Translations under genes and position numbers: made by a program
Assembly (NCBI GenBank): GCA_024919035.1
Contig: CP103442.1
Coordinates: 1,240,001-1,304,000, forward strand
Direction of reading: 5' to 3'
DNA: 64,000 nt
Source: Methylophilaceae bacterium LSUCC0401
GTDB taxonomy: Bacteria > Pseudomonadota > Gammaproteobacteria > Burkholderiales > Methylophilaceae
Part shown: piece by piece, positions 47,494 to 50,758 of the stretch
How the letters are laid out: every line of letters starts with the position of its first letter
Numbering within the stretch: position 1 is the first letter of the stretch
Notes under the pieces: generated by a model
Told to the model about the DNA's origin: nothing
Databases searched by the model: none
Seen by the model: only the letters and a program-made list of their open reading frames with translations

Positions 47494-48243
47494 TTATGCA
47501 CCCGCATCAGACTTACGCTGAGCGATCATATAAATCATTACACCAAACAAGGCTTTTGCTACCACGTCAGCTATAGTATATCCAACTTGAATAACTGGGT
47601 TTACTGCACCTGGATCAGCTTGAAATCCGATCATTGGTAAAATAAACACGATTGGGTAGAAACACCATGAAAGAATCGTTAAAGTTCTTGCTTTACTTAC
47701 AAGGCCTTGAACGGCTTTAGGCTGTTTACTGATAGATGCACCAAGGCCACTAACAAGATCCCTTACAATATATATAAATGGAATCATTGAAAGAACCCAC
47801 CACATCCAACGGTCACCATACATTGATGAATCAGTAATGATTTCACCTGGATAGCCTAGAATAACCATCACTGCTGCAGCTAATGCAAGTTTTGTACCTT
47901 TAGAATATGTTTCTTCTCTAGATAGTCTCATTACTAAAACAAGCTCTAGAAGTAACAATGGTACAGTTAATAACCAATCCACATAACGATATGCATCATT
48001 AAATTGAGCACCAGTTGCTTCAACAGAACCATTAACTAATGTGTATGCATCATTGAAACTTTCAAACATTCTTAAATAATGATAAAAAGCGATTAAACAA
48101 ACTAATCCTGATAAGGATAGCGCTGTTTTATATGCAGGAGCGACTTGAGAACGCTGTGCAAAAAAGAAAACTGTTGCCGCACCAAATGTTGCGATGGCAA
48201 ATGACAACGAGTTGTAAACTAAATTAAATCCACCTACTTCCAT
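47494..48243 (-). CDS. Proteorhodopsin (light-driven proton pump)
   Basis: The 249-residue protein has seven membrane helices. Using the green-proteorhodopsin numbering, the segment RYVDWLLTVPLLLLE contains Arg94, proton acceptor Asp97, Thr101 and proton donor Glu108, the DTE pattern of an outward proton pump; the retinal lysine is in VVAKALFGVMIY. FYHYLRM keeps the histidine that pairs with Asp97. Position 105 is Leu, predicting green rather than blue absorption. The LGYPGEI loop resembles the xanthorhodopsin-like clade, but at the carotenoid-antenna glycine position there is Trp (RWMWWVLS). GGAGA precedes the ATG, and two stop codons follow. Confidence 0.96.
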   Translation of the reverse strand: MEVGGFNLVYNSLSFAIATFGAATVFFFAQRSQVAPAYKTALSLSGLVCLIAFYHYLRMFESFNDAYTLVNGSVEATGAQFNDAYRYVDWLLTVPLLLLELVLVMRLSREETYSKGTKLALAAAVMVILGYPGEIITDSSMYGDRWMWWVLSMIPFIYIVRDLVSGLGASISKQPKAVQGLVSKARTLTILSWCFYPIVFILPMIGFQADPGAVNPVIQVGYTIADVVAKALFGVMIYMIAQRKSDAGA

Positions 48244-48424: not shown

Positions 48425-48456
48425 TAAAAAAACCCTTGTATAACAAGGGTTTTTTA
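48425..48456 (-). terminator. Intrinsic terminator of the small membrane protein gene
   Basis: On the minus strand AACCCTTG pairs with CAAGGGTT around TTATA and a T-run follows at 48425-48432. It isolates the upstream small gene from the rhodopsin gene. Confidence 0.85.
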
Positions 48457-48474: not shown

Positions 48475-48711
48475 CTATTTACGTGCTTTCCATATAGAAT
48501 AAAGCACCCAGATGGCTACAAGACCAACAATTCCCTCACCGCCAAGTGAGTTTAGATGGCCAGTTACAGTTTCAATGACTCTTGGTTGACCGAAGAATGG
48601 TATTGCTGCTCCACCCATAAGTATCTGTAAAACAATACCAAGAGCTAAAAGACTTATTACGGTTTCCGCAAGTGCAGCGGCCCAACTTCTTACTGTTTTT
48701 AGAATATCCAT
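48475..48711 (-). CDS. Unrecognised 78-residue two-helix membrane protein upstream of the rhodopsin
   Basis: The product has an amphipathic N-terminus (MDILKTVRSWAAALAET), a first membrane helix (about 14-34, VISLLALGIVLQILMGG), a short loop with IPFFGQPRVIETV, a second helix (about 58-74, EGIVGLVAIWVLYSIW) and a KARK end. I do not recognise the family. It has a near-consensus promoter, a strong AAGGAG nine bases from the ATG, and its own terminator, the picture of a highly expressed single gene. It lies directly upstream of the rhodopsin in the same direction. A link to the rhodopsin is inference from position only. Confidence 0.8.
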   Translation of the reverse strand: MDILKTVRSWAAALAETVISLLALGIVLQILMGGAAIPFFGQPRVIETVTGHLNSLGGEGIVGLVAIWVLYSIWKARK

Positions 48712-48738
48712 CTATTACTTCTCCTTGTTTTAGTAATA

Positions 48739-48766
48739 ACTATAGAAATTACGTTTAAACTCTCAA
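48739..48766 (-). promoter_or_regulatory. Near-consensus sigma-70 promoter of the small membrane protein gene
   Basis: On the minus strand TTGAGA (48761-48766) is followed after 16 bases by TATAGT (48739-48744); each differs from consensus in one base. The start would be near 48732, leaving a leader of about 20 bases that contains AAGGAG. Confidence 0.6.
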
Positions 48767-48928
48767 CTCTTTAAACATATAAAAAACAATACTCTCTTTG
48801 TAAAAAAATACAATATTTAGTAAAAATTTTTATATTGACAACAATATATAGATATTATAAATTAATAAGTTCCCCTATATAATTCGTAAATATTTGCTCT
48901 TGCTAACATCAAAAAATGATAACTTGAA

Positions 48929-50758
48929 CTACTCCACTGTGACTGATTTTGCTAAATTTCGAGGTTTATCAACATCTGTTTTTTTAGATAATGCAACATG
49001 GTAGGCTAATAATTGTACTGGAATTGAATGGACGATGGGTGACAAGATTCCTACATGTCTATTGGTTCTAATAACATGAATACCCGTTTCAGCATCAAAA
49101 TGACTATCAGCATCTGCAATCACAAAAAGCTCTCCCCCTCTTGCTTTAACCTCTTGCATATTTGATTTTACTTTTTCTAATAATTTATCATTGGGAGCAA
49201 TCACAACAACAGGGAGGTCTTTATCCACCAATGCTAAGGGGCCATGTTTTAATTCACCAGCGGGATATGCTTCCGCATGAATATAAGACACCTCTTTTAA
49301 TTTTAGTGCTCCTTCGAGAGCAATAGGGTAATGCAATCCCCGTCCTAAAAAAAGAGCATTAGATTTTTGACTAAATTTTTTGGCCCATGCTTTAATTTGT
49401 GGTTCTAAATTTAATGCTGTTTGAATATGTCCAGATAATTTTCTTAGCTCTTCTATGTAGGCTAATTCATTTTTCTTTGTAATTTTTTTTCTTTGTTTTG
49501 CAAAAATTAATGCTAAAACAAAAAGGCAAACTAATTGAGTCGTAAATGCTTTTGTTGAAGCGACACCAATTTCAACTCCTGCTCTGGTATAAAAAACATT
49601 ATTTGATTGTCTAACTATGGCACTTTCTTGAACATTACAAATAGTTAAAGAATGTTTATTTCCGTTTTTCTTAGCTTGTTTCAATGCTTCCAACGTATCA
49701 AGCGTCTCTCCTGATTGAGATATGGTTATAATAAGTTGTTTTTTCGGAGTCACTACATCTCGATAACGATATTCGCTAGCAATTTCTACGTTAACAGGCA
49801 CTTTAGCTAGATGTTCAAACCAATATTTAGCTGTTAAACCTGCATAGTAACTTGTTCCTGCCGCTAAAATTAAAATACTTTCAAACTTTGATGCATCAAA
49901 TTTTGTTCCACCAATCAATTTTGGATTAATGGAACCCTCATCGATAATGGACTCAATAGTATCTGCAATTGCAACAGGTTGTTCATATATCTCCTTTTGC
50001 ATAAAATGATTATATGGGCCAAGTTCCATTTGGTTTTCTTTAACAGAGCTTTTATGAACTTTTCTATTAATTTGATTTAAATTATTATCAAAAATTTGAT
50101 AGTCATCTGAAGCAATTAAAGCTATATCTCCATCCTCAAGAAACACTACATTATTTGTTACTGATATTAATGCCGAAATATCAGATGCAATAAAATTTTG
50201 ATCCTCTGATACTCCTATAATTAACGGACATCCATTTCTTGCAACAATAATTTCATTTGAGTATTTATCACTCACTGCTATTGCATAAGCTCCCTCAAGT
50301 TTTTTACAGGTTTTATGCACCGCATCTAAGAGCGAAGATTTATTTTTTCTATAGAAGTGAATTAAATGTGCGATTACCTCGGTATCAGTTTCTGATTTAA
50401 ATTTATAACTTTTATTTTTTAAGAACTCACAAAGTTTTGCATGATTTTCAATAATGCCATTGTGCACAACTACTATTTCATTATTTGAAATATGGGGATG
50501 TGCGTTTTTTTCTGATACTCCACCATGTGTTGCCCACCTTGTATGACCAATACCTGTTTTACCCTTAAAATCTTTTTCTAATATTTTTTTATGAATTGTT
50601 GAAACTCTTCCAACTGATCTAATTCTTTGAATTCGCTGATGATGAATAATCGCGACTCCTACCGAGTCATATCCTCGATATTCAAGTTTTTCCAATCCAT
50701 TAATTAAGATTGGAACAATATTATTATTTTTTGATACACCGCCAACAATTCCACACAT
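48929..50758 (-). CDS. glmS: Glutamine-fructose-6-phosphate aminotransferase
   Basis: GlmS makes glucosamine-6-phosphate, the first step to UDP-GlcNAc. The 609-residue protein has the N-terminal Ntn glutaminase domain starting MCGIVGG, with Cys2 as the catalytic nucleophile, [10 protein letters not shown] and [10 protein letters not shown], then two SIS isomerase domains ([41 protein letters not shown]). It ends with the invariant [13 protein letters not shown]. It follows glmU by two bases. No glmS ribozyme-like structure is seen before it, as expected in a Gram-negative. Confidence 0.98.

Follow-up and report, generated by a model that had tools for sequence, protein, structure and literature searches.

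A family of predicted membrane-hairpin proteins encoded by planktonic bacteria and by phages

Several described systems resemble parts of the locus reported here. The class II holins and pinholins, such as the phage 21 S protein and N4 gp63, are small two-helix proteins with charged ends, and to our knowledge few lysis proteins have been characterised in aquatic phages. The T4 superinfection-exclusion protein Imm, of ~80 amino acids with two hydrophobic helices, is phage-encoded and made early. In cyanophages, psbA is an auxiliary host gene carried by T4-like marine phages. On the bacterial side, the lpp-type units of Gram-negative bacteria consist of an abundant single gene with a strong promoter, a structured leader and a strong terminator, encoding a small envelope protein.

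The gene described here, called X, shares features with each of these. Bacterial X has the same layout as lpp-type units (single gene, apparently strong promoter, structured leader and strong terminator), although its product is a predicted inner-membrane hairpin without a lipobox and without sequence relation to lpp. Like cyanophage psbA, X is a host-type gene present in many phages and in several genome contexts; unlike psbA, it appears to be under T4-late-type control in one phage set, and no recent host donor was found. Class II holins and pinholins match X in size, in the two helices and in the charged ends; some phage copies carry a late-promoter-like box, and one group of them lies upstream of an exported-looking endolysin. 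However, X has no match to a holin profile, its bacterial copies show conservation and apparently strong promoters, and we know of no lethality caused by them. X is similar to T4 Imm in size, in its two hydrophobic helices and in phage carriage, but differs in matching no profile, in looking late in the first phage set and in having bacterial orthologues.

Gene X, its protein and its expression signals

The window, meaning the whole 64,000-nucleotide stretch analysed, covers bases 1,240,001-1,304,000 of a single-contig 1.31-Mb genome, and the features of the X locus are collected in Table 1. A preliminary description of the window had proposed a 78-residue, double-helix membrane protein. The open reading frame, two hydrophobic segments (residues 19-37, maximum 2.26, and 55-73, maximum 1.60, by Kyte-Doolittle with a 19-residue window) and two predicted helices (residues 2-31 and 45-77 in a structure model of modest to medium confidence, pLDDT 67.8) were all found. 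With these features X falls within the size and shape of two-TM holins (60-150 amino acids, two TM helices, charged termini).

The protein shares 95-97% identity with its counterparts in Methylophilaceae of the OM43 clade, KB13 and LSUCC0665 among them. Compared with KB13, X is 95% identical, glmS 79% and glmU 71%; overall, X roughly equals the rhodopsin in conservation and exceeds glmS, glmU and crtE. Its dN/dS is 0.03-0.09 against KB13, L008 and HTCC2181, and on these ratios purifying selection on X is real and strong. In the loop PFFGQPRVIE, described earlier as conserved-looking, the PF is invariant in the OM43-type set and the remaining residues vary. A Foldseek search of the medium-confidence X model against PDB and BFVD returned no match. 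The inovirus coat protein, suggested by a profile search of solved structures, was set aside as a chance match (E 0.4), and F1Fo ATP synthase subunit c was rejected because no aligned member has an acid at residues 60-77.

Table 1. Features of the X locus in window coordinates
Feature	Coordinates	Strand	Basis or remark
X CDS, 78-aa two-helix membrane protein	48475..48711	(-)	ATG ORF, homologues, helix model, dN/dS
Ribosome-binding site AAGGAG, 9 nt from ATG	48721..48726	(-)	GGAG core invariant in 17 OM43 genomes
Promoter of the preliminary description, TTGAGA-N16-TATAGT	48739..48766	(-)	present here; -35 not kept in close relatives, -10 lost in other OM43 clades
24-bp element GTTTAAAGAGTTGAGAGTTTAAAC, inverted repeat GTTTAAA/TTTAAAC with 10-nt loop	48753..48776	(-)	alignment of 17 genomes
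TATTGT, TAnnnT -10-like box just upstream of the 24-bp element	48786..48791	(-)	alignment reading, inference
Intrinsic terminator separating X from the rhodopsin gene (stem-loop, T-runs on both strands)	48427..48455	(-)	
Rhodopsin gene, adjoins X only in KB13/HTCC2181-type genomes	47494..48243	(-)	context
glmS, upstream of X throughout the genus	48929..50758	(-)	context

Among the expression signals proposed earlier, the AAGGAG nine bases from the ATG and the strong terminator are present, the latter as a stem-loop with a T-run that is kept in close relatives. The remark that few genes in the window are so well equipped also held, as in a scan of 75 ORF-based gene calls X alone combined a promoter-like site of at least 10/12 with a Shine-Dalgarno match of at least 6. 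The proposed TTGAGA-N16-TATAGT promoter did not survive comparison, since it fits this one genome only. Its -35 reads ATGAGA in L002, whose protein is 97% identical, and AAGAGA in KB13, and in the locus alignment the HTCC2181-type and AH-578-type genomes lack its -10; promoter-like matches in the region number 24, below the 31.3 +/- 5.3 of shuffled sequences. Thus the earlier observation stands for the reading frame, the helix layout, the ribosome-binding site and the terminator, and falls for the promoter.

The sequence GTTTAAA-N10-TTTAAAC, which overlaps that promoter, is kept in 17 OM43 genomes aside from small changes in arm or loop. Because this invariant element has a TAnnnT box just upstream, the leader of about 20 bases proposed earlier is probably wrong, and TATTGT can tentatively be taken as the true -10 of X. 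The element itself may be either a dedicated operator or a 5'-leader hairpin. When single sequences were folded, the hairpin did no better than shuffles, and an element this invariant leaves no room for covariation. It was also considered as a regulon motif and rejected, as further sites in the genome occur at chance level.

Distribution in bacteria and genomic neighbourhood

X belongs to a previously undescribed family of predicted helical hairpins of ~72-78 residues. For the window protein and the phage members, searches of Pfam, NCBIfam, PHROG and PADLOC yielded no entry for the family and chance matches only, and none of 21 members matched a holin profile in Pfam or PHROGs. A profile search placed the family in at least three planktonic bacterial groups. 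In a Methylophilaceae sample, X was confined to the OM43 genus (20 of 150 genomes, 1 of 24 genera). Relatives were present in 46 of 80 genomes of a gammaproteobacterial family, f134, often as two to three tandem copies, and in 18 of 21 genomes of family f57 as tandem pairs; genome sizes and gene content suggest that f134 is SUP05/Thioglobaceae. Further relatives outside the OM43 genus were found in G042 and G400, and beyond these almost none appeared in samples of the class (369 genomes) and the phylum (398 genomes). The bacterial relatives are chromosomal and lie outside prophages, at the glmS locus in OM43 and in a UbiA-like/DapD-like interval in G384. Within f134, X was missing from every tested g141 genome. 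The g141 genomes (G823, G828, G832, G842 and others) measure 1.0-1.6 Mb, mostly in one contig, and their size indicates that they are probably intracellular symbionts.

Twelve f134 loci were read for expression signals; these were the top matches, not a random draw, and their script-assigned -10 boxes are imperfect. An exact TTGACA was present in all 12, and a leader hairpin in 11, with shuffle p<=0.05 in 10. A purine-rich ribosome-binding site stands upstream, and a stem-loop with a T-run follows the gene. Several planktonic bacteria carry X as a single-gene unit that, judged from its flanking signals, is apparently strongly expressed.

Throughout the OM43 genus, X stands at the glmU-glmS locus and its constant neighbour is glmS. 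X and rhodopsin were each detected in 26 of 31 genomes of the genus and adjoin in just 12 of the 26 that carry X. In AH-578/AH-273-type genomes, other genes lie downstream of X and the rhodopsin is elsewhere. The distance between the two is 533 kb in G018, where they share one contig, and 397 kb in G029. In G017 (92% complete), X is present and no rhodopsin was detected. Many OM43 genomes of other clades (G002, G005, G018, G022, G027 and others) have two rhodopsin genes close together and away from X. In their main text, papers on OM43 give transcript numbers for rhodopsin and none for X.

In f134, rhodopsin was found in 12 of 80 genomes and was not detected in 36 of the 46 genomes with X. Some genomes are incomplete, so that single rhodopsin absences are weak evidence; the highly complete G384, G805, G810 and G820 show the same pattern of X without detected rhodopsin. 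In the two single-contig f134 genomes with both genes (G801 and G811), the genes are ~60 kb apart. Both are common in f57, but in G886 and G890, each a single contig, ~410-430 kb lie between them.

Phage copies of X

Relatives of X were recovered from 167 IMG/VR viral contigs, in three sets of 65, 22 and 80 loci. This phage connection was not anticipated by the preliminary description. The larger contigs examined are phage; the 117-kb contig L040 carries a PHROG baseplate hub and an SbcC-like nuclease, with tail and capsid genes along its length from reading of the sequences. A run of radical-SAM/SPASM-like genes, noted by eye near 90-103 kb of the 117-kb phage contig (L275-L280), is unusual for a T4-like phage. 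A tblastn search of INPHARED phages and of plasmids gave no match, a weak negative since the low-complexity filter may mask hydrophobic queries, and a viral scan with an f57 protein as query returned no relative.

Phage X occurs in at least four gene contexts, in which the neighbours are named from sequence readings. It follows gp26/gp51-like genes, stands beside another gene set in L055 and L061, lies directly upstream of a hydrolase gene in L113-L130 (18 of 18 loci, 31-127 nt), or, in the third set, stands between dUTPase-like and Hsp20-like genes or beside DNA polymerase. Near X, most loci in L135-L214 have one or occasionally two dUTPase-like genes along with an Hsp20-like gene. The L113-L130 hydrolase scored above the Pfam Hydrolase_2 cut-off in both records tested and matched PHROG endolysin profiles, and its N-termini are hydrophobic and export-signal-like. 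In the other phage groups and in bacteria, X lies away from endolysins. An 89.5-kb phage-like contig binned in an OM43 MAG (L101 / G029:C2) carries an endolysin beside an X relative and a glutamine-synthetase-like gene, and stems either from an infecting phage or from faulty binning.

Of 61 loci in the first, T4-like set, 57 have a TAAATA box in the 100 nt upstream of X, mostly between -47 and -56; the background rate is 0.08 per 100 nt. The box is present in 14 of 22 loci of the second set and in 8 of 79 of the third. CTAAATA and NATAAATA are late promoters described for phages Aeh1 and S-PM2 (PMC1524935, PMC2984593). The first set and part of another phage group combine such a CTAAATA-type, late-promoter-like box with a leader hairpin and a strong ribosome-binding site, and X there looks like a late-infection gene. 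Between the TAAATA box and the ribosome-binding site, the phages keep a hairpin in position while its sequence differs between them. Across 45 distinct phage leaders, the median folding energy was -8.5 versus -3.3 for shuffled leaders and 80% reached p<=0.05, a test made with mononucleotide shuffles on leaders that, being related, are not independent. A few other genes of L040 share this leader layout, which is thus not unique to X.

In a tree of 77 columns, the first phage set branches as sister to the OM43 proteins (91/91); both are separate clades, and most other forks lack resolution. Among the phage copies retrieved, the best identity to the window protein is 61%, so that neither recent exchange nor a recent capture from any known host is seen.

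Readings of the family

Our preferred reading, which we hold tentatively and at somewhat less than an even chance, is that X forms abundant hairpins in the inner membrane, associates with itself and is supplied anew by phages late in infection. Both termini would face the cytoplasm, and faces of glycine and other small residues would allow self-association. Small planktonic cells would make X in quantity as a general membrane component, and gene-capturing phages would re-supply it late, so that the membrane of the host is kept or reshaped up to lysis. A captured accessory gene of this kind would be expected in scattered phage contexts, as seen, and a lethal pore is hard to square with strong promotion and constraint in bacteria. 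In one phage group the adjacent endolysin fits lysis better than re-supply, and the third phage set, which mostly lacks the TAAATA box, also speaks against this reading.

Phages seem to exploit a membrane function via X. A bolder reading, which we consider possible but somewhat doubtful, is that planktonic bacteria make X in quantity and that phages, which also encode it, express it late, so that the two versions meet in one membrane. There the phage version would prop up an essential bulk membrane component until lysis, or the host version would interfere with a lysis protein that the phage makes from this family. In bacteria as abundant and streamlined as the marine methylotrophs of OM43 and the SUP05 type, a gene that purifying selection keeps as a unit of its own, that some lineages have duplicated and that many phages carry points to a membrane function important in plankton and in infection. 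The late-promoter-like signal in one T4-like set and the adjacent endolysin in another group make the family a testable candidate for a lysis protein of aquatic phages.

That lysis role is the core of the closest rival, in which phage X proteins are holins or pinholins, late two-helix proteins that build up and make the inner membrane leaky, starting lysis, and bacterial X proteins are resident holin-like relatives under other control. The size, hydrophobic helices and charged ends of X agree with it, as do the late-promoter-like box of the first phage set and the position of X before an export-signal-like endolysin throughout L113-L130. The L040 contig, moreover, shows only one other plausible small multi-TM ORF, and phage N4 is known to use a two-gene holin/regulator system alongside a SAR endolysin (PMC12642591). 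However, strong purifying selection in bacteria and the TTGACA promoters of f134 would be odd for a lethal pore, X lies away from endolysins in the remaining phage contexts, and neither Pfam nor PHROG holin profiles match it. We therefore consider this rather unlikely and prefer the membrane-hairpin reading, the two being close.

It is improbable that bacterial X interferes with phages, as a dominant-negative spoiler of lysis or by superinfection exclusion of the T4 Imm type, with the phage copies serving exclusion. The family is common to bacteria and phages, the first phage set has its nearest relatives in the OM43 proteins, and X is absent from the probably intracellular g141 symbionts, all of which would suit such a role; the very low dN/dS is not an arms-race pattern, however, and PADLOC gave no match.

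The earlier proposal that X is an accessory or structural partner of rhodopsin is very improbable, because the adjacency in 12 OM43 genomes is inconsistent across the genus, the two genes are unlinked in other OM43 clades, most f134 carriers are without detected rhodopsin, and a terminator separates the two genes in the window. It does not pass the adjacency check suggested in the preliminary description. In HTCC2181-type genomes, a second, diverged copy of 77 aa stands in tandem with X, on the side of the rhodopsin gene and ahead of it (HTCC2181, L100:3975-4208, minus strand). The alternative offered with the rhodopsin proposal, an unrelated abundant membrane protein, stands and gains support from the expression layout seen in other bacteria, from which X is probably well expressed.
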